Origin: an uncultured Coprococcus sp.
Lineage (GTDB): Bacteria; Bacillota; Clostridia; Lachnospirales; Lachnospiraceae
DNA: 64,000 bases
Assembly (NCBI GenBank): GCA_934277375.1
Contig: CAKQTZ010000001.1
Coordinates: forward strand, 1 to 64,000
Direction: 5' to 3'
Shown here: positions 4,193 through 49,354 of the stretch, one piece after another
Position numbering within the stretch: the first letter of the stretch is position 1
Layout of the letters: the number at the start of each line of letters is the position of its first letter
Program-made: the position numbers and the translations under genes
The notes under the pieces: model-generated
What the model saw: only the letters and a program-made list of their open reading frames with translations
Database searches by the model: none
What the model was told of the DNA's origin: nothing

Positions 4193-4230
4193 TATAGTTG
4201 ACCACGGCAATCCATGTCGTAGTCAACTAT
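4193..4230. repeat. 13-bp inverted repeat in a gene-free stretch
   Basis: ATAGTTGACCACG pairs with CGTAGTCAACTAT (one mismatch) around a 12-nt loop, upstream of the flavoprotein gene. It could be a regulator-binding dyad or an RNA hairpin; there is no T run. The stretch 4110-4560 has no supported gene. Confidence 0.5.
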
Positions 4231-4445
4231 TATCGGTAGCTGGTAGATACGCCCAACCATATTATGGGCTTATACATATATAATTGTAATTCTTTCGTCA
4301 TAAAATATGATTGCACTATTCATATTTACTATATCTCACGCAAAATATCTGCGCTCATGTGGATGCCACAAACTGATCGTCCACATCGCATCCTTAAAAA
4401 TTATAGCATATTACATATAGTTTGCGCAAGCGCAACCGTCGCAAT

Positions 4446-19798: not shown

Positions 19799-19841
19799 AA
19801 TGCGCCTCCTTATTTTACTAATGACTGCACATTTCAAGATA

Positions 19842-19875
19842 TAAAAAAACTCTCAAAGCCCTAAGACCTGAGAGT
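19842..19875 (-). terminator. Attenuator terminator in the L10 leader
   Basis: Stem ACTCTCA/TGAGAGT (19875-19869 with 19855-19849 on the minus strand), 13-nt loop, then seven Ts. It stands directly upstream of the rplJ ribosome binding site, at the 3' end of the L10 leader. Confidence 0.85.
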
Positions 19876-19970
19876 AGATTGTTAAATCAATAACGATATC
19901 TTTCCTCGGTAGGTGATGTTTCATCTTACGCCCTGAGGCACCTACTGTCTTCGGCAGTTCATCGTTGCTC
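19876..19970 (-). ncRNA. Ribosomal protein L10 leader RNA
   Basis: On the minus strand this transcript contains GAAGACAGTAGGTG and CACCTACCGAGG, the kink-turn and stem sequences of the Firmicutes L10 leader family (Rfam L10_leader). The two arms (CAGTAGGTG / CACCTACCG) pair. L10, probably with L12, would bind here and favour the downstream terminator. Confidence 0.85.
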
Positions 19971-19999
19971 AATATAACACACACTTGAACCTGTGTCAA
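19971..19999 (-). promoter_or_regulatory. Promoter of rplJL
   Basis: Minus-strand -35 TTGACA (19999-19994), 17-bp spacer, -10 TATATT (19976-19971), just upstream of the L10 leader. Confidence 0.82.
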
Positions 20000-32561: not shown

Positions 32562-35216
32562 CTACATCGCCTTCTTGTATATCTCAGCAATCTCCTCCTG
32601 TGTGAATACCACAGGGTTGTTTGCTATGCTGGCTGCTGAAACCTTCATGCAGTTCTCAGCCATCCAAGGAATATCCTTCTCCTCGATTCCGAGATCTGAA
32701 AGCTTGACATCCAGATCAAGATTCTTCAGAAGAGTTCTGATCTTCGGTGCCAGATCATCCGCCGTGATACCGCCAAATATTCTGGCGATCTTCGCAAATT
32801 TGAAGTGATCTCCCTTGTAGGATGCCTCGATGATAACAGGGGTCAGAGCTGCAAGTCCCTTGCCATGAACTATATCCTTAAGTCCGCTGGCCGGATGCTC
32901 CATTCCGTGAGCCAGTGTAACTCCAGCTGTGTTGATGACCATACCACCTATGGTGCTGGCCAGTGTTATCTTCTCCCAGCTCTCCTGGGTTCCTCTGCCC
33001 TTATATACATCCACAAGATTGTGGGCGATAAGATCGATCGCATACAGTGCAAGCGCATCTGTAAATGGCTGCGAGATCTTTGATGTGTATGCCTCCATGC
33101 AGTGGCACAGTGCATCGAACCCAACTGCTGCAAGCACATGCTTTGGCATGGTCTTCATGCAGTCCGGATCCACGATGGATACCTTTGCCACGATGGCATT
33201 GCACCTGAGTGACTTCTTGTCGCCATTTTCCGGATTGGTGAGAACCGCAAATCCATTTCCCTCTGAACCTGTTCCGCAGGTTGTAGGAATAAGTACAAGC
33301 GGAAGTGCCGTATCGCTGACCTTTCTGCCGAATATGTAATCGTTGATGTCTCCATCATTGAGCGCCAGGAACGCTATAGCCTTTGCGCAGTCCATGATGC
33401 TTCCACCACCTATGGCAACGACCACATCACAGCCATTTGCCTTGGCAAATTCTGCACCTTCCATCGCTGTTGTAGTGAGCGGATTCTGTGCAACCTTATC
33501 AAACAATGTAGTCTCAAGACCTGCTGCTTTCAGACTGTCATTTACCTTGTCATACAAGCCTGACTTCTTTGCACTGCTGCGGCCTGTGACGATGAGCGCT
33601 TTCTTACCATACGGCTTAGTGAGTTCACCGGTCTGGGCAACCTTTCCGGTACCAAATGCAATATTTACAGGGAGATTGTAGTTGAAGGCAATAGGCTGGA
33701 CAAATTTTGTCTCGTCCTCCTCAGCCATAACAAGCTCGATTGCTGCCTTGACTTCTTCCTCTCTGTTCTCTTCCTCATCTACAATCTCATCATCAATGAG
33801 GACATCGACATGTGAAGCGAATTTTTCTTTATATTTAAGCTTACATATTATGAAGAATACCACACCAAGAAGTGACCAGCCACCTGCCATAGCCCATTCC
33901 TGCCATACAAGTGCACTTCCTGAATTTGGAACTATGTACATCACAACCATAAAACCAGACATGAGAACTGCCAGCACACCAACGATCTTATAATGCTTGA
34001 CCTTATATGGTCTCTTCATATCCGGTGCCTTCTTCCTGAGTATCAGGAATGAAAGGGATACCATGCAATATGCAAGACAGCATCCAAAGTTACCTGCGTC
34101 AACTATCCATACCAGCATCTTACGGCCTGCAAGAGGTGCAAGAACTGAGAGGAAACCGATGAGGTAAAGTGCATTTACAGGTGTCTTGTGCTTCTTGTGA
34201 AGCTTTGCAAATGTCTTCGGGATCATGTATGACTCTGCCATGGAGTACATCGCACGGCTTCCTCCGATGAGGAATGAGTTCCAGCTGGTAACGATACCGC
34301 ACATACCTCCTACAATAAGAACCTTCGACATAATACTGCTGTTGAATGCCTTTGCCATGGCATCCGCTGTAACAAGACCTGATCCATCCATGGATGCAGC
34401 TATCTCAGATGAATTCATGACATAACCTACACCTATGATGATAAGTGCATAGAATGCAACCGCAAGAACAATTGAGAGTATCATGATCTTACCGATCTTC
34501 TTGAGAGGTACATTGATCTCCTCTGCAGCCTGTGGGATTACGTCAAATCCAATGAAGAAGAATGGTGTGGTAACAGCAACTCTGAGGATAGTCTTAAATA
34601 TCTCTCCTGTGGAGTCTCCGTTGAACACCTGTCCGTCAAGGTTTGAAGCATCTCCTGTCACAACTGATGCAACTATGAGGAGAATACCAACACCGCCGAT
34701 CACAACTGTAAGTATGGTCTGCAGAAGTGCTGCTGTCTTCGCGCCCTTTATATTGATATATGTTATAAATATCGCAACTATTATTGCAACCGCAAGCCAC
34801 GATGCATAGATATCAAAACCTGCCACCGTGTACAGATATCCCTGAAGGAACTTTGGATATATATAAGTGATGATGGTTGGAAGTGCACACGCCTCGAAAC
34901 AAACAACACTGACATATCCAAGTACGATAGCCCATGTACATATGTAAGAACCTATAGGGCCCATAGCCTTATAGCTGAACACATGCTCGCCGCCGCACTG
35001 AGGCATGGCTGCTGTAAGCTCTGCATAAGTGAGTCCAACGAAGAATACCATCACACCGCCAAGTGCAAATCCGATAGCCGCTCCTATTACTCCACCTCTC
35101 GTGATCCAGTCGCCTGAGGATACTACCCAGCCCCAGCCGATCATGGCTCCAAAGGCTATCACCAGTATGTCCCAGGCAGAAAATACTTTATCAAATTCTG
35201 ATTTTTTTCCTGCCAT
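32562..35216 (-). CDS. APC amino acid permease fused to an iron-containing alcohol dehydrogenase
   Basis: 884 residues in one frame. Residues about 1-455 are a 12-helix APC permease (DILVIAFGAMIGWGWVVSSGDW start, typical GS/GW helix-1 motif). An acidic linker of about 40 residues (IDDEIVDEEENREEEVKAA) leads to a complete group-III alcohol dehydrogenase (about 495-884) with the NAD site GGGSIMDCAKA and iron ligands in FDALCHCMEAY and LAHGMEHPASGLKDIVHGKG. Next to two omega-aminotransferases it could import an omega-amino acid such as GABA and reduce the derived semialdehyde to a hydroxy acid (inference). An upstream frame reaches 35309, but AAAGGATG precedes the ATG at 35216. Confidence 0.9.
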   Translation of the reverse strand: MAGKKSEFDKVFSAWDILVIAFGAMIGWGWVVSSGDWITRGGVIGAAIGFALGGVMVFFVGLTYAELTAAMPQCGGEHVFSYKAMGPIGSYICTWAIVLGYVSVVCFEACALPTIITYIYPKFLQGYLYTVAGFDIYASWLAVAIIVAIFITYINIKGAKTAALLQTILTVVIGGVGILLIVASVVTGDASNLDGQVFNGDSTGEIFKTILRVAVTTPFFFIGFDVIPQAAEEINVPLKKIGKIMILSIVLAVAFYALIIIGVGYVMNSSEIAASMDGSGLVTADAMAKAFNSSIMSKVLIVGGMCGIVTSWNSFLIGGSRAMYSMAESYMIPKTFAKLHKKHKTPVNALYLIGFLSVLAPLAGRKMLVWIVDAGNFGCCLAYCMVSLSFLILRKKAPDMKRPYKVKHYKIVGVLAVLMSGFMVVMYIVPNSGSALVWQEWAMAGGWSLLGVVFFIICKLKYKEKFASHVDVLIDDEIVDEEENREEEVKAAIELVMAEEDETKFVQPIAFNYNLPVNIAFGTGKVAQTGELTKPYGKKALIVTGRSSAKKSGLYDKVNDSLKAAGLETTLFDKVAQNPLTTTAMEGAEFAKANGCDVVVAIGGGSIMDCAKAIAFLALNDGDINDYIFGRKVSDTALPLVLIPTTCGTGSEGNGFAVLTNPENGDKKSLRCNAIVAKVSIVDPDCMKTMPKHVLAAVGFDALCHCMEAYTSKISQPFTDALALYAIDLIAHNLVDVYKGRGTQESWEKITLASTIGGMVINTAGVTLAHGMEHPASGLKDIVHGKGLAALTPVIIEASYKGDHFKFAKIARIFGGITADDLAPKIRTLLKNLDLDVKLSDLGIEEKDIPWMAENCMKVSAASIANNPVVFTQEEIAEIYKKAM

Positions 35217-35270
35217 AATATCATCCTTTCTAATACATCCAAGCACATCATCCTCATTTTTGTTAAAGTG

Positions 35271-35323
35271 TAAAAAAATGGCGTCAGAGATCACACTTTC
35301 TGTGTTCATCTGACGCCTTTGTC
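35271..35323 (-). promoter_or_regulatory. Leader terminator/attenuator before the permease-dehydrogenase gene
   Basis: Minus strand: GACAAAGGCGTCAGA, an inner CACA/TGTG stem, TCTGACGCC, then ATTTTTTTA. The arms pair (35317-35309 with 35288-35280). It shares CATYTGACGCCTTTGTC (plus-strand reading) with the amtB leader. It may end the upstream kinase-like transcript or act as a regulated attenuator. Confidence 0.6.
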
Positions 35324-35385
35324 ATTTCCTATATTCGCGATGTAGTTGGAATTGCATATATCTGTTAATTTACATTTTTTTATGC

Positions 35386-36013: not shown

Positions 36014-37231
36014 CTATTTACTTAATTCTGCCACTGCATCTGTGATGATCTCAACAGCCTTATCACACTGCTCTTCGTTCACGATAAGTGGTGGGATCAT
36101 ACGGATTATATGAGCTCCGATGGCTGTGATCAGAAGCTTTCTGTCAAGACATCCATGCTTTACATCTACGCCGCCGATCGTATCATCAAACTCAACACCA
36201 ACCAGGAGACCCTGATGTCTTACTTCCTTTACATGTGGGATCTTCTCAAGCTTTGCTGCGAAATAATCTCCCATCTTCTTTGCATTTCCTGCAAGATCTC
36301 TGTCAAGCAGCTCATTTACCTCAGCAAGTGCTGCTGCACATGATACAGGATGTCCACCAAATGTTGTTCCATGTGAACCAGGTGTAAATGCCTTTGCTAC
36401 CTCAGCGGTTGCACATATAGCTCCAATTGGCATTCCGCCGCCGAGAGCCTTTGCCATGGACACGATATCCGGCTTGATTCCGTAATTCATGTATGACATG
36501 ACATTTCCTGTTCTGCACCAGCCTGTCTGAACCTCATCTATAAGGAGAAGCATATCGTTCTCATCACAGAACTCTCTGAGTCCCTTCATGAATTCCATTG
36601 TTGCAGGATGTACACCGCCCTCGCCCTGTACAGGCTCAACCATGATTGCTATAGTGTTCTCTGTACATGCATCCTTGAATGCCTGAAGGTCGTTGTAAGG
36701 TGCATATGAGAAGCCGTATGTCATAGGACCAAATCCTACCTGACAGCCATTTCCAGGCTGACCTGTTGCTGACATGGCACCGAATGTTCTTCCGTGGAAG
36801 CCCTGCTTTGCAGTTACGATATGGTAACGGTTTGGACCATACTTCTCAATACCATACTTACGTGCCATCTTGATCATAGCCTCATTAGCCTCTGTTCCTG
36901 AGTTCTGGAAGAATATCTTATCCATTCCGATTGTTGTACAAACCTTCTCAGCAAGCAGTGCCTGTGGAATCGTGTAAGGATAGTTGAATGTGTGCATGAT
37001 GTCACCGACCTGATCCTTGACAGCCTCAACAACCTTCTCATTGCAGTTACCTGCGCTGTTTACTGCAATTCCGGCGTAGAAATCAAGATATCCGTTGCCG
37101 TTCTCATCATATATGTACATATCCTTTGCTGTCTCAGCGAGGAAATCGAAACGCTCATATGTCTCGATCATGTACTTGTCTACCTTGTCCTTGATGTCCT
37201 GAAATGTTAATCCTGTGTCTTTTAATTTCAT
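36014..37231 (-). CDS. Class-III (omega) aminotransferase
   Basis: 405 residues, PLP-dependent fold type I, subgroup II. The PLP lysine is in VSMAKALGGGMPIG; SGTEANEAMIKMAR, FHGRTFGAMSATG, VEPVQGEGG and LIDEVQTGWCRTG are the other family blocks. It resembles acetylornithine/GABA-type enzymes; the amino donor cannot be fixed. The frame continues to 37417, but GGAGGTAAGG precedes the ATG at 37231, so the upstream part is the 5' leader. It has its own promoter (37386-37414) and a leader hairpin. The cytidylate-kinase-like gene follows after 34 bp. Confidence 0.93.
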   Translation of the reverse strand: MKLKDTGLTFQDIKDKVDKYMIETYERFDFLAETAKDMYIYDENGNGYLDFYAGIAVNSAGNCNEKVVEAVKDQVGDIMHTFNYPYTIPQALLAEKVCTTIGMDKIFFQNSGTEANEAMIKMARKYGIEKYGPNRYHIVTAKQGFHGRTFGAMSATGQPGNGCQVGFGPMTYGFSYAPYNDLQAFKDACTENTIAIMVEPVQGEGGVHPATMEFMKGLREFCDENDMLLLIDEVQTGWCRTGNVMSYMNYGIKPDIVSMAKALGGGMPIGAICATAEVAKAFTPGSHGTTFGGHPVSCAAALAEVNELLDRDLAGNAKKMGDYFAAKLEKIPHVKEVRHQGLLVGVEFDDTIGGVDVKHGCLDRKLLITAIGAHIIRMIPPLIVNEEQCDKAVEIITDAVAELSK

Positions 37232-37303
37232 AATCCTTACCTCCACTACATTTGTAAAATTTAGAAGAATCATGGTGCCGGATAGCTTTTGTCCCCAAGC
37301 ATC

Positions 37304-37576: not shown

Positions 37577-38131
37577 TTAGTGATAGTCCAGGAATACGCA
37601 TATACAGCTCACCTTTTCATTTCCATCGTTGCTGTACACATGAACCTTGTCGGTCTCAAACCTGTATATCTGATTCTTACCGACCTTCTGTTTTGTATCA
37701 CCGGCCTCAACAGTCAGAACACCCTCTGTAACCGACAGGTATTCTCTTGTCTTCTCGCCATGCGAACCGCTGACATACGCACCTCCCGGCGCAATATCAA
37801 TGCGATATATCTCCACCTCATGGCTGTCCTCATATGGAAAACACGTCCACACCTTATACTGTCCCTTCGCCTCCTTGATCGGAACAAGCTCCTCTGGATT
37901 CACAAGACAAGCCTCCATGGGCGGCGGATCGATAAGTTCATGGAACTCAACTCTGAGACCGCTGGCTATCTTGCCCATGACACCCAGCGACGGATTCGCT
38001 GTACCCTTCTCAATCTGCGCCAGCATACTCTTGCTGACACCCGTCTGCTCAGACAGCACATCCAGACTCATGCCTTTGGAGGTCCTCATTCTATTCAGAT
38101 TCACAGCAACATTATGTGATAAATAATCCAT
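37577..38131 (-). CDS. XRE-family regulator with C-terminal cupin domain
   Basis: 184 residues. HTH_3 domain (about 8-62: MSLDVLSEQTGVSKSMLAQIEKGTANPSLG) followed by a cupin_2 sensor domain (about 105-184: IDIAPGGAYVSGSHGEKTREYLSVTEG). Regulators of this build (PuuR-like) often control amino acid or polyamine catabolism. It lies 158 bp after gabT on the same strand. The frame extends upstream to 38218 through a repeat element, but AGAGGGAG before the ATG at 38131 and the HTH position favour this start. Confidence 0.9.
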   Translation of the reverse strand: MDYLSHNVAVNLNRMRTSKGMSLDVLSEQTGVSKSMLAQIEKGTANPSLGVMGKIASGLRVEFHELIDPPPMEACLVNPEELVPIKEAKGQYKVWTCFPYEDSHEVEIYRIDIAPGGAYVSGSHGEKTREYLSVTEGVLTVEAGDTKQKVGKNQIYRFETDKVHVYSNDGNEKVSCICVFLDYH

Positions 38132-38137
38132 AGCAAT

Positions 38138-38258
38138 TCTCCCTCTTTCGCGGGTCCTCCTTGTGATATATGGAGCAGGCGCATTACTATGCACTCCGTG
38201 CGGCGCCCGCATTATCACAAGGCATCTCCCTCTTTCGCGGGTCCTCCTTGTGATATAT
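38138..38258 (-). repeat. 1.4 tandem copies of an 87-bp unit carrying a structured leader element
   Basis: A 34-bp sequence (38138-38171) is repeated exactly at 38225-38258. Between them lies GCGGGCGC/GCGCCTGC with inner GCAC-GGA-GTGC, enclosed by a perfect 10-bp outer stem CCTTGTGATA/TATCACAAGG (minus strand, 38222-38213 with 38168-38159) whose 3' arm covers part of AAGGAGG. The unit also encodes a possible 12-residue peptide MPCDNAGAARSA after AGAGGGAG. A closely similar sequence precedes the serpin gene at 58138-58216. Confidence 0.7.
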
Positions 38259-38289: not shown

Positions 38290-39645
38290 CTACTTAGACA
38301 CCGCCTCCACTGCTGCCTCGAAGATATCAAGGCCGGCGGCAAGCTGCTCATCTGTGATAACAAGCGGTGCAAGGAATCTTATGACATTATTGTAGGTTCC
38401 GGCGCCCTCAACCAACAGACCGCGCTTCCAGCACTCGGTGATGACCGCAGATGTAAGCTCAGGAGCAGGCTCCTTGGTCTTCTTATCCTTGACAAACTCT
38501 ATTCCTACCATTCCGCCGAGTCCTCTGACATCGCCAACGCACTCATACTTCTCCTTGAGCTCATTGTATCTTGCCACAACTTTCTCACCGATCTCACATG
38601 AACGTCCTGCAAGATCATCTCTCTCCATGATCTCGATAGTCTTGAGGGCTGCTGCACAGGCAAGTGGATTTCCACAGTATGTACCGCCTATTGTTCCAGG
38701 AGCGACAGCCTCCATGATCTCTGATCTTGCGATGATGGCTGACAGCGGAACACCTGCTGCTATAGACTTGGCTGTTGCTATGATATCTGGCTGTACTCCT
38801 GCCTCCTGCCAATATACACTGGCAAATATTCTTCCTGTTCTGCAGAAACCACTCTGTACCTCATCTGCGATAAGAAGGATTCCATTGTCATCACAGAGCT
38901 TTCTGACAGCCTTTACCCACTCGATAGGTGCAGGTATGAAACCACCCTCGCCCTGAAGAGGCTCAACAACAACCGCAGCAATGGTATCTGCAGCTGCGCA
39001 CTGTTCAAATACATCTGTAAGCGAATTTATATAGTAATCAAGAGCTGCCTCCTGTGGCATTCCCTCCGGATTCCTGTAGTAATATGGGAACTGTGCCCTG
39101 AACACTCCATTTGCAAGCTCACCCATTCCCTTTGCATAAGCCTTCTTGGATGTCATGGCCATCGTGTAATGTGTTCTGCCGTGGAAAGCTCCCGAAAATA
39201 CGATGATATTTGGTCTCTTTGTAAAGCTCTTTGCAACCTTTACAGCATTCTCATCAGCTTCAGCGCCACTGTTTGCGAAGAACACCTTCTTCTCGTCGCC
39301 CTTTACTGGTGCGATGGATGCAAGCTTCTCAGCGAGTGCCACATATCCCTCATGGGTTACCACATTGAACATGCCGTGGAAATATTTGTCAGCCTGTGCC
39401 TTGACAGCCTCAACGACCTCCGGCTGTGAAAATCCGATATTCAGGACACCGACACCACCTATCCAGTCGAGGAACTTGTTGCCATCCACATCCTGTATCA
39501 TAGCTCCTTCACCTTTATCTATAACGACAGGGTACGCACATCTGATGGCTGATGGCACAGCCTTCTCTCTTCTCTTTATAACCTCTGCTGCCTTTGGTCC
39601 CGGCAGTGTCTCTGTGATTATCACTGGTAAATCTGTTCTAAGCAT
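38290..39645 (-). CDS. gabT: 4-aminobutyrate aminotransferase-like protein
   Basis: 451 residues, class-III PLP aminotransferase. The N terminus LPGPKAAEVIKRREKAVPSAI is typical of GABA--2-oxoglutarate aminotransferases; GAEADENAVKVAK, FSGAFHGRTHYTMAMTSK, EPLQGEGGF, IADEVQSGFCRTG and the PLP lysine in IATAKSIAAGVPLSA follow. It would convert GABA to succinate semialdehyde; related omega-amino acids are possible. The ATG at 39645 follows AGGAGG. It is divergent from a PucR regulator and upstream of the XRE-cupin gene, both plausible controllers. Confidence 0.88.
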   Translation of the reverse strand: MLRTDLPVIITETLPGPKAAEVIKRREKAVPSAIRCAYPVVIDKGEGAMIQDVDGNKFLDWIGGVGVLNIGFSQPEVVEAVKAQADKYFHGMFNVVTHEGYVALAEKLASIAPVKGDEKKVFFANSGAEADENAVKVAKSFTKRPNIIVFSGAFHGRTHYTMAMTSKKAYAKGMGELANGVFRAQFPYYYRNPEGMPQEAALDYYINSLTDVFEQCAAADTIAAVVVEPLQGEGGFIPAPIEWVKAVRKLCDDNGILLIADEVQSGFCRTGRIFASVYWQEAGVQPDIIATAKSIAAGVPLSAIIARSEIMEAVAPGTIGGTYCGNPLACAAALKTIEIMERDDLAGRSCEIGEKVVARYNELKEKYECVGDVRGLGGMVGIEFVKDKKTKEPAPELTSAVITECWKRGLLVEGAGTYNNVIRFLAPLVITDEQLAAGLDIFEAAVEAVSK

Positions 39646-39707: not shown

Positions 39708-39757
39708 GGGGTCAGACCCTCTTTACTGCATCAACGTGTTAAATGGGGTCTGACCCC
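39708..39757. repeat. 50-bp palindromic element, copy 1
   Basis: GGGGTCAGACCC (39708-39719) and GGGGTCTGACCCC (39745-39757) flank the spacer CTTTACTGCATCAACGTG. The same 50-bp design with the same spacer core occurs at 43179-43228 (inverted) and 49245-49294. It lies between gabT and the PucR gene. A partial GGGGTC copy precedes it at 39694. Confidence 0.85.
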
Positions 39758-39853
39758 ATTTGACCTATTTTAACCTCATTTCTGAAACACCGGCTGTCTT
39801 TTTAACTCTGCATATAGAATCGCACAACCATAGGTGTTATGCCATATTCCCCA

Positions 39854-39929: not shown

Positions 39930-39991
39930 AATATATAATGTGTTTTTTACAGGACGATATATGTGCGTATAATACAGGAGGGAACACTGAC

Positions 39992-41131
39992 ATGGCCATT
40001 TTTCTGAGAGATCTGTACTATGATACCAAACGAAAATACAACCTTAACTTGATATCCGGCGGAAAGGGAATGGAGAACATCGTAAGCTGGGTATACATAT
40101 CAGAGGATATATCCACATCCACATTCTTGAACGGAGGGGAACTCATCATCACAACCGGCGTGACCTCCGGTGAACGCGAGGACTGGCTCAGAGCATTTAT
40201 CAAGGAGCTCATAAAGAGGGGAACCTGCGGACTCATTCTGAATACCGGCAGATATATATTTGAGGATGACATAACCGATGAGATCGTCAGACTGTGCCAC
40301 CGATATTCGTTCCCGCTGTTCACCATGCCATGGGATACAAGGATATTCGATATCACCCACGACTACTACAACAGAATATTTGAAGACTCTAGGGATGATG
40401 GCAACATGACCGCAGCATTCCAGAATATTCTCATTGGGAATTCACTGACTGACGAGCAGACTGACACAATAAAAGGCTCCGGATTCAACAACGGCTACTA
40501 CAACGTTCTGTCCATCGATACAGAAGCAACAGATGAGTTCATGTATATCCTGCAGAAGGTCTGCAACAATACAGATCTTGTCTTTCACGCATTTGTATAT
40601 GATAGCAATCCGACAGTTATCCTGAGATGCCCTTCCTCTGGCTCCATAGCAGACAAATGCGCCGGCATCGCAGAGGCTCTGGCAGCACGATTTCCGGACC
40701 GCAGAATACATATGGGTTCCGGAAGCCCGGTTCTGTCCCTGACAGAACTGCCCCAAAGTTACCGCCGTGCAGTTTCCGCAAGGAAATTTACCACAGACAA
40801 CATATATTGTGATTACAACAGCCTCGGATTCCTGCGTATTCTTCTGGAAGTTAATGATACGCAGCTCATACACTCATTTATCACAGAGCAGCTCGGCAGA
40901 GTCATAGAGTACGACAAAACCCATCACTCAGCTCTGACGGACACCCTGTACGAATATCTGAAGTGCAGTGGCAGTGTTCAGCTTATCTCCGAGAAAATGT
41001 TCTGCCACAGGAATACGATAAATTACAGGCTCCGGATAATAAAAGAAGAGCTGGAATATGATCTCTCCGATGCGGATGTCAGATTCCAGCTCATGGCTGC
41101 ATATAAACTCAGAGAGCTAAGCAAAATGTAA
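39992..41131 (+). CDS. PucR family transcriptional regulator
   Basis: 379 residues. An N-terminal PucR ligand domain (about 1-120: LNLISGGKGMENIVSWVYISE, LNGGELIITTGV) is followed by a middle region and a C-terminal PucR-type helix-turn-helix (about 320-375: LYEYLKCSGSVQLISEKMFCHRNTINYRLRII). PucR regulators activate purine, GABA or amino acid catabolic genes. GGAGGG before the ATG at 39992 decides the start over an upstream in-frame ATG at 39938. It is divergent from gabT, with a dyad between them. Confidence 0.92.
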   Translation: MAIFLRDLYYDTKRKYNLNLISGGKGMENIVSWVYISEDISTSTFLNGGELIITTGVTSGEREDWLRAFIKELIKRGTCGLILNTGRYIFEDDITDEIVRLCHRYSFPLFTMPWDTRIFDITHDYYNRIFEDSRDDGNMTAAFQNILIGNSLTDEQTDTIKGSGFNNGYYNVLSIDTEATDEFMYILQKVCNNTDLVFHAFVYDSNPTVILRCPSSGSIADKCAGIAEALAARFPDRRIHMGSGSPVLSLTELPQSYRRAVSARKFTTDNIYCDYNSLGFLRILLEVNDTQLIHSFITEQLGRVIEYDKTHHSALTDTLYEYLKCSGSVQLISEKMFCHRNTINYRLRIIKEELEYDLSDADVRFQLMAAYKLRELSKM

Positions 41132-43144: not shown

Positions 43145-43178
43145 TGTTTTTTCTCCTTATAAACAAAACTCTAACAAA

Positions 43179-47971: not shown

Positions 47972-49216
47972 CTATGAATCAAGTCCATTGAATGTTGGAT
48001 ATGCACTCTCGCCGTGCTCTGAGATATCCAGACCTACCTTCTCTTCCCTGTCTGTTACACGAAGCGGTGTGAAGAGTCTCACGATTCCAAGACAGATAAA
48101 TGTTCCGACTACGGCTACCGCGATCGTTACAACTATACCTACAAGCTGCATCAGGAACAGATGTACATCGCCGAATACAAGACCATCCCAACGAGCTACA
48201 CTGTTGATCGAGCTCTTTGCAAATAAACCTGTTGCGATACCTCCCCAGATACCTCCGATACCATGACATCCAAATGCATCAAGTGCATCGTCTATCTTCA
48301 GCTTACCCTTAAGGAATGATATTGTAAAGCAGCAGATCGGGCTGACAAGTGCACCGATGATGAATGATGACCAAATCGGTACGAATCCAGCACCAGGTGT
48401 TATAGCCACAAGACCGACAACAAGACCTGTCGATGCACCAACCAGTGTAGGCTTTCCATCCTTTATAACATCTATTATCATCCATGAAAGCATTGCGCTG
48501 GCACTGGCAATCGCTGTTGTCATGAATGCATGTGCTGCAAGACCATTTGCTCCGAGGGCACTTCCGGCATTGAAACCGAACCAGCCAAACCAAAGGATGA
48601 ATGCACCGAGTGCAACAAATGGAATGTTGTGAACTCTGTATGCTGTGTTCTCGTATCCCTTTCTTCTTCCAAGGATGATAGAGAATACAAGGGCACTCAC
48701 ACCTGAGCTTATATGTACTACATTTCCTCCTGCAAAATCAACTGATCCGATCTCTCCGAGGAAACCGCCCTGACCCCATACCATGTGTGCCATCGGATAA
48801 TAAACGATGATCGACCAGAGCATGATGAAGGAGAACAGTGCCTTGAACTTCACACGTCCGACCAGTGAGCCGGTGATAAGCGCCGGTGTGATCATTGCGA
48901 ACATCATCTGAAATGCAACGTATACAAGGTGAGGTATATTGTCCGCATAAGGGCCAGCCTCATCCATCTTTATCCCGTTAAGTGCAAACCACTTGAGGTC
49001 TCCTATAACACCTCCATGATTAGTGCCAAATGAGAGTGAGTAACCGAACAGCACCCACATGACAACTGAAAGTCCCATGATGGCTGTACATGCCATGATG
49101 GTATTTACAACATTTTTCCTCCTGACGAGGCCTCCGTAGAAGAATGCAAGTCCGGGTGTCATGAAGAACACCAGAGCCGCACAAATCATAATAAAACCAG
49201 TATCTCCCGTATTCAT
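47972..49216 (-). CDS. amtB: Ammonium transporter Amt
   Basis: 414 residues with eleven membrane helices. The pore is recognisable: GGNVVHISSGV and GCHGIGGIWGG carry the twin histidines, and QMMFAMITPALI and WFGWFGFNAGS carry the gating phenylalanine and tryptophan regions. It conducts ammonium across the membrane. The ATG at 49216 follows AAGGAGG. The leader contains a promoter, a terminator-like hairpin and a 50-bp palindromic element, and glnK follows. Confidence 0.97.
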   Translation of the reverse strand: MNTGDTGFIMICAALVFFMTPGLAFFYGGLVRRKNVVNTIMACTAIMGLSVVMWVLFGYSLSFGTNHGGVIGDLKWFALNGIKMDEAGPYADNIPHLVYVAFQMMFAMITPALITGSLVGRVKFKALFSFIMLWSIIVYYPMAHMVWGQGGFLGEIGSVDFAGGNVVHISSGVSALVFSIILGRRKGYENTAYRVHNIPFVALGAFILWFGWFGFNAGSALGANGLAAHAFMTTAIASASAMLSWMIIDVIKDGKPTLVGASTGLVVGLVAITPGAGFVPIWSSFIIGALVSPICCFTISFLKGKLKIDDALDAFGCHGIGGIWGGIATGLFAKSSINSVARWDGLVFGDVHLFLMQLVGIVVTIAVAVVGTFICLGIVRLFTPLRVTDREEKVGLDISEHGESAYPTFNGLDS

Positions 49217-49306: not shown

Positions 49307-49354
49307 ACAAAAAGGCGCCAAACGAATCTTTTTGATCCATTTGACGCCTTTGTC
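49307..49354 (-). promoter_or_regulatory. Leader terminator/attenuator before amtB
   Basis: Minus strand: GACAAAGGCGTCAAA and GGATC, loop AAAAA, GATTC, then TTTGGCGCCTTT (49351-49340 with 49322-49311), followed by TTGTTTC. It begins only a few bases after the expected transcription start. It shares 16 of 17 bases with the leader of the permease-dehydrogenase gene at the same position in the hairpin. Confidence 0.65.

Follow-up and report, generated by a model that had tools for sequence, protein, structure and literature searches.

We analyzed a window of 64,000 nucleotides from an uncultured Coprococcus sp. (assembly GCA_934277375.1, contig CAKQTZ010000001.1, positions 1 to 64,000), in which one gene on the minus strand (32562..35216) encodes an 884-residue protein that joins an amino acid permease to an iron-type alcohol dehydrogenase. 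The fusion is real and common to several bacterial groups, and it was already known as a database name only. Together with its neighbors it forms a module of anaerobes, mostly from the gut, which we read, with somewhat more confidence than reservation, as serving nitrogen scavenging: an omega-amino acid would be imported and transaminated, the semialdehyde reduced and the hydroxy acid discarded. The fusion itself, its conservation, its catalytic motifs, its neighbors, the unfused versions and one cluster with an ATP-binding cassette (ABC) transporter in place of the permease are computed results.

The 884-residue frame is open throughout and the same fusions recur in the database, so that a sequence-only reading of this DNA, which had described a single polypeptide with no stop or frameshift, holds. 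The ATG of the gene is immediately preceded by AGAAAGGATG. An alternative in-frame ATG at 35309 would give a product of 915 residues; the 884-residue start matches the point where 18 aligned relatives begin, and protein P0001 has its N-terminus 13 residues ahead of it. Three Pfam domains score above their cut-offs: AA_permease_2 (residues 12-449), Fe-ADH (516-684; 183.5 bits, cut-off 31.3) and ADH_Fe_C (696-884; 145.8 bits, cut-off 27). The permease half (residues 1-465; 33822..35216, minus strand) matches the solved structures 5oqt and 6f34 in sequence, and its helices in the AlphaFold2 model read as those of a 12-helix APC permease. By Pfam assignment, helix count and fold it is an APC-superfamily amino acid permease, with predicted transport activity. 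An acidic tether follows (residues 466-510; 33687..33821, minus strand), mostly predicted to be disordered apart from a short helix at 486-496; the predicted local distance difference test score falls below 50 at residues 72-78 and 475-514. The remainder (residues 511-884; 32565..33686, minus strand) is modeled confidently with the Fe-ADH fold. It carries D701, H705, H770 and H784, which by comparison with FucO we take to be the metal ligands, and G603-G604-G605-S606, presumably the nucleotide motif. All are unchanged in 52 of 52 aligned fusions, consistent with the earlier description of a complete Fe-dependent dehydrogenase with intact NAD and metal motifs. By Pfam and these motifs this half is an iron-containing (group III) alcohol dehydrogenase, and its reductase activity is predicted.

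A database search with the fusion gave 2376 matches from 7993 candidates scored. The best 120 of these are all fusions, with 78-99% identity and 92-100% query coverage, and several carry the NCBI name "bifunctional amino acid transporter/iron-containing alcohol dehydrogenase". The fusion occurs in records titled Lachnospiraceae, Bifidobacterium, Megasphaera and Epulopiscium and in loci of named isolates such as Bifidobacterium merycicum DSM 6492, Bilifractor porci and Oliverpabstia intestinalis. The survey of other genomes that the sequence-only reading had proposed thus found it in several lineages, and the uniformity of the best 120 matches together with the named-isolate loci rules out, in practice, a sequencing or assembly artefact. 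A search of the open-access literature found no paper on this fusion, and no relative was found in viral contigs. A 99% identical copy (locus L021) resides in genome G001, titled Clostridiales bacterium. With at most three candidates scored per genome, an unbroken full-length match was present in 9 of 299 genomes of the family to which G001 belongs, and in 3 further genomes the spanning match was broken by stops. Among 101 genomes from the genus of Bifidobacterium merycicum, 9 carry the fusion, as do 5 of 15 from that of Megasphaera cerevisiae. The Bifidobacterium fusions that were read have two types of linker, one in L030, L032, L036, L037 and L136 and another, similar to that of L017 and L018, in L134 and L135, which suggests at least two transfers; the fusion has apparently moved between phyla. 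One match of 1053 residues (P0042) has a serine-recombinase domain (PF00239) ahead of the permease and might be an assembly join or a genuine three-part protein.

The window and the best 80 of at least 550 loci comprise 44 fused loci, 35 with separate genes (including L051 and L052, cut by contig ends, L053, with a broken dehydrogenase frame, and L057, classed as split by hand) and 2 without a neighboring dehydrogenase; because the set consists of best matches, the proportion fused does not estimate how frequent fusion is in the population. In 34 of the 35 split loci the permease gene precedes the dehydrogenase gene on one strand, L057 being ordered otherwise, and in four the two genes overlap by 4 nucleotides. 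At 13 of the split loci the dehydrogenase is of the window's subfamily; the other 22 use a different iron-type subfamily that shares 31-39% identity with the enzyme of the window. Unfused permeases also possess the acidic tail. Their pairwise identity (n=35, that is, 34 split loci and L068, with L056 and L057 excluded) is 78% in the core, 76% at residues 470-484, 65% at 485-499 and 39% at 500-512. Six pairs of fusions were compared: their domains are 78-88% identical but the residues linking them 36-50%, a divergence that fits a translated tether. The acidic linker noted earlier is thus present, as a tether of about 40 residues, and alignments identify it as the diverged C-terminal tail of the unfused permeases. 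Where the free enzyme has its start codon, fusions that contain the window's dehydrogenase subfamily (40 in all) carry Met in 8 cases and Ile in 10. In L033 a split-type permease tail runs on into the dehydrogenase, which looks like a separate fusion event; the record is titled Succinatimonas, a title that may come from a mis-binned metagenome. Each clade may owe its form to fusion or to later fission, since the permease and dehydrogenase trees conflict; their branches are long and some of their support is weak.

Upstream of the fusion gene, on the same strand, lie genes for a cytidylate-kinase-like protein (PF13189; 35386..35979), an ArgD-like class III aminotransferase, AT2 (36014..37237; by Pfam, NCBIfam and closest matches), a helix-turn-helix and cupin regulator (37577..38143; Pfam) and a second class III aminotransferase, AT1, resembling aminotransferases of gamma-aminobutyrate (GABA) (38290..39645; by TIGR00700 and solved structures); a PucR-type regulator gene (39938..41131, plus strand; Pfam) diverges from them. 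The kinase-like gene is upstream of the permease in all 79 loci with enough sequence, which makes it the permease's most constant partner, yet it has no obvious pathway role. Of 71 loci, 57 have AT2 in the 3 kb that precede the permease start, 7 have an ornithine-cyclodeaminase-like gene there, 3 have AT1 and 4 have none of these; among the last, L057 has AT2 just past the limit and L020 has AT1 downstream. AT1 and AT2 both lie within 6.5 kb in 24 of the 71, and AT1 directly precedes the kinase-like gene in L017, L075 and L079. The adjoining aminotransferases reported from the sequence alone are therefore part of conserved surroundings with one or two class III enzymes. Where the cyclodeaminase-like gene takes the aminotransferase's place (L023, L024, L026, L027, L031, L038 and L039), FAD/2Fe-2S amine-dehydrogenase-like genes are nearby in 6 of 7 loci, and the L024 protein, from the one locus of the seven scored, exceeds the "tyramine oxidase subunit B" cut-off.

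Gene context offers clues to function. Surroundings were read for six standalone orthologs of the dehydrogenase (52-79% identical), and AT1 or AT2 adjoins five (L115-L118 and L120, with L119 lacking both). L117 is a polyamine cluster holding AT1 (62% identity) and the dehydrogenase (66%), with a putrescine aminotransferase (667 bits, equivalog cut-off 612), an agmatine deiminase (541 bits, equivalog cut-off 382) and a PotA protein (374 bits, subfamily cut-off 356). In L118 an ABC transporter occupies the place of the permease beside a kinase-like gene (24%), AT2 (81%) and the dehydrogenase (63%); its ATPase is nearest to GlnQ (301 bits, under the cut-off of 379), and the other transporter parts were recognized by eye. 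In L132, AT1 is followed in a row by a dehydrogenase-like gene (34%), then the permease, then a glutamate-dehydrogenase-like gene. This context points to uptake of GABA or a similar compound, transamination to glutamate and semialdehyde reduction.

In the proposed scheme, the permease half would import GABA or a closely similar omega-amino acid, and a neighboring class III aminotransferase would transfer the amino group of this compound to 2-oxoglutarate, so that glutamate and a semialdehyde would form. On the inner side of the membrane, the tethered dehydrogenase would then convert the semialdehyde by reduction into a hydroxy acid (4-hydroxybutyrate in the case of GABA), which would exit the cell as waste. 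The tether is likely to help by keeping the reductase in a 1:1 ratio with the permease and by holding it at the membrane, with no build-up of reactive aldehyde. We infer the substrate, the reaction directions and this benefit, GABA being the best-fitting omega-amino acid; AT1's nearest solved structures are 4-aminobutyrate aminotransferases. The HpaB/AbfD family includes the enzyme needed for onward metabolism of 4-hydroxybutyrate. It turned up in 4 of 19 module genomes (completeness not given; L078 lay outside the search), all of them Megasphaera, and the hydroxy acid is therefore probably waste outside that genus. The family was not found in G001, which holds the 99% identical copy (completeness not given), so a full GABA-to-butyrate route was rejected for the window species. 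Consequently, of the uptake and reductive degradation of an omega-amino acid suggested from sequence alone, uptake and reductive use agree with gene context, and "degradation" is better read as nitrogen scavenging. Covalent channelling, put forward in the same suggestion, was not borne out and is unlikely: the tether is predicted to be disordered, an aminotransferase must act before the reductase, unfused versions are common in the set (35 of 81), and Megasphaera fusions have lost the metal ligands. A tether that sets ratio and place would suffice, and a sealed channel is not implied.

Several results weigh against this scheme. The dehydrogenase reaches no NCBIfam equivalog cut-off, and its score with the 4-hydroxybutyrate dehydrogenase model NF058672 is 186.5 bits (cut-off 500). 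AT2 resembles ArgD, not GabT, in NCBIfam scores and closest matches. The second dehydrogenase subfamily serves 22 of the 35 split loci, and the substrate may vary accordingly; the L117 polyamine cluster also fits 4-aminobutanal reduction. The kinase-like gene has no role in the scheme and is its main loose end. Finally, since the metal ligands are lost in Megasphaera, the module does not in every case depend on the tethered domain for reduction.

This Megasphaera version was unexpected. In 5 of 5 fused genomes from the genus of Megasphaera cerevisiae (L040, L042, L043, L044 and L127), other residues stand in place of the four metal ligands, and the GGGS motif is altered. The domain is nevertheless full-length with its frame intact, and its model keeps the same fold, with Foldseek TM-scores by target mostly of 0.72-0.84 against solved single dehydrogenases. 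The ratio of nonsynonymous to synonymous substitution rates (dN/dS) is 0.11 for L044/L127 and 0.18 for L042/L043 (dS 1.4, near saturation), compared with 0.07 and 0.04 for the permease; these were the two pairs from which a usable dS was obtained. Neutral decay is unsupported by these values, the second being near saturation, and the domain appears to be an inactive enzyme domain retained under purifying selection in the two pairs. Its assignment to the second dehydrogenase subfamily was rejected, since the tree, with very long branches, sides with the first. Three other genomes of the genus have a permease about 70% identical and without the dehydrogenase domain, and these permeases are sister to the fused ones in a tree from which 16 near-duplicate rows were dropped and to which 11 were added. 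The domain can therefore lose its metal site, or vanish, while the permease persists.

The same observations bear on the alternatives. The dehydrogenase half might also act as a built-in transporter subunit for assembly or gating, in the manner of the inactive heavy chains found in animal exchangers of amino acids, possibly sensing NAD(P)H or the aldehyde, in which case Megasphaera would have dropped catalysis and kept the structural or gating role; the loss of ligands in all five genomes, the intact frame and the low dN/dS fit this, but three genomes of the genus keep the permease without the domain, and we consider the idea improbable. A near-neutral origin, in which co-transcribed neighbors lost the intervening stop and the tether gives equal protein amounts and nothing more, seems rather unlikely, though less so. 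It would account for the shared order and strand of 34 of the 35 split gene pairs, four with overlaps, for the Met or Ile present at the free enzyme's start position in some fusions, and for L033, which resembles a separate fusion retaining a split-type tail. Against it stand the presence of the fusion across Lachnospiraceae, Bifidobacterium, Megasphaera and Epulopiscium records, with apparent movement between phyla, and a Megasphaera domain that stays full-length despite losing its ligands.

Within the nitrogen-scavenging reading, a substrate other than GABA, a polyamine or another amino compound, is a lesser but serious prospect. Candidate conversions are putrescine to 4-aminobutanol, beta-alanine to 3-hydroxypropionate, 5-aminovalerate to 5-hydroxyvalerate and taurine to isethionate. 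The polyamine cluster around one standalone dehydrogenase, the ArgD-like character of AT2 and TauF of Bifidobacterium, which follows the same logic for taurine (PMC6616044), all speak for it. On the other side, AT1, which in three loci directly precedes the kinase-like gene, is nearest to GABA aminotransferases, although its TIGR00700 score (494.1 bits) falls below the cut-off of 506.65, and the L118 ATPase is nearest to amino acid types rather than PotA. For taurine, the SarD model NF050025 scores 212.4 bits against a cut-off of 700, which makes sulfoacetaldehyde a less likely substrate. The highest NCBIfam score of the fusion is to ErcA (NF041833; 265.9 bits, cut-off 550), and equivalog identities as sulfoacetaldehyde, lactaldehyde, choline or 4-hydroxybutyrate dehydrogenase were rejected on scores under cut-off. 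It is very doubtful that the permease is an exchanger, taking an omega-amino acid in and releasing the hydroxy acid of its own dehydrogenase, with the tether feeding the counter-substrate to the exit side: fold similarity proves no mechanism, and the importer-type ABC transporter in its place in L118 would not exchange.

Expression of the module is probably nitrogen-controlled through a leader terminator. The 169-nucleotide gap before the fusion gene (35217..35385, minus strand; fold z -4.28) contains a strong terminator-like hairpin (35280-35317) followed by a T-run (35272-35279) and, at the 5' foot of the terminator and as an alternative pairing, a hexaloop mini-hairpin, GAC-AAAGGC-GTC (35312-35323). 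A second such element (49343-49354, minus strand) precedes an ammonium transporter gene (47972-49216; Pfam). The Rfam scan gave no family at the leader before the fusion gene. The window and loci hold 43 hexaloop-terminator elements (2 in the window, 41 elsewhere); in a hand tally biased by loci picked for the module, the following gene is the permease in 14, AT2 in 14, a cyclodeaminase-like gene in 3, a gene beside it in 2, AT1 in 2, an ammonium transporter in 2 (the window and, by eye, L028) and another gene in 6. With stem letters left free, 52 of 273 terminator-linked hexaloops are fully paired, related loci being counted separately, against a mean of 16.1 and a maximum of 29 with shuffled partners; the stems of A1/G4 hexaloop hairpins covary. 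A terminator before the permease is not general among the loci. In 30 of them at least 60 nucleotides separate the kinase-like gene from the permease match; a T-run hairpin reaches -14 kcal/mol or better in 15 of these, is weaker in 4 and is missing from 11, including the four Bifidobacterium loci. Gaps in the other loci are shorter or unmeasurable.

ANTAR target RNAs comprise two A1/G4 hexaloop hairpins of at least 3 pairs each, the second at the terminator foot (PMC3369931). Our elements resemble the second hairpin in the leaders of EutV, NasR and AmiR by the A1/G4 hexaloop, the 3 closing pairs and the position at the terminator's 5' foot; EutV targets also require the first hairpin (PMC3369931). 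Such a first hairpin turned up ahead of 1 of 42 elements (1.9 expected; L008, too near a contig end, was omitted), which led us to reject a classic two-hairpin site; with less strict terminator criteria the count was 19 of 143 (9.8 expected). An ANTAR domain occurs in all 12 genomes searched, and in the 3 read its gene, recognized by eye, directly follows glnA (glutamine synthetase). The element before the ammonium transporter, AT2 and AT1, together with this gene order, hints that the module is linked to nitrogen; that an ANTAR-like antiterminator exerts this control is a lead rather than an established result.

Other features of the window include a purine riboswitch (4200-4298, minus strand) and a ribosomal L10 leader (19835-19972, minus strand), both above the Rfam gathering score, and a serpin gene (PF00079; 58225-59520, plus strand). 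A palindromic terminator-like element containing GGGGTCTGACCCC lies at 39738-39764 (plus strand), and related AACAAAGGGGTC matches are at 43173 (plus strand) and 49289 (minus strand).

Several bacterial lineages have kept a single chain that unites a secondary transporter with a metabolic enzyme acting downstream of it. This offers a ready test of whether tethering a reductase to a transporter alters flux, and the unfused, fused-intact, fused-ligandless and domain-free versions are all natural and directly comparable. Should GABA be the substrate, the module would act as a sink for a neurotransmitter in the gut and might supply 4-hydroxybutyrate.

Several known systems resemble parts of this one. 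The NCBI "bifunctional" entry is the same protein family, on the NCBI side a name only. Clostridial fermentation of GABA to 4-hydroxybutyrate uses a GABA aminotransferase and an iron-type 4-hydroxybutyrate dehydrogenase, followed by 4-hydroxybutyryl-CoA dehydratase; the module shares the pairing of aminotransferase and dehydrogenase, whereas the dehydratase family was found in four of the 19 module genomes, all Megasphaera. SLC7 transporters are disulphide-linked to the SLC3A2 (4F2hc) heavy chain, an extracellular, inactive enzyme-like domain with a glycosidase fold. The Megasphaera version is comparable in joining an APC transporter to an enzyme-like inactive domain, but the fusion is one chain, has a dehydrogenase fold and is presumably intracellular. 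The dehydrogenase domain is 28% identical to the TauF structure 6jko, in a comparison that probed the dehydrogenase half more fully than the permease half and so does not exclude families absent from it. In Bifidobacterium kashiwanohense, taurine nitrogen is assimilated by import, an aminotransferase and the NADH-dependent iron-type (M-ADH) enzyme TauF, the product being secreted (PMC6616044). There TauF is a separate protein and the substrate is taurine; with amine import, an aminotransferase, an iron-type reductase and a hydroxy product sent out, this system is the nearest described parallel to the module (PMC6616044).
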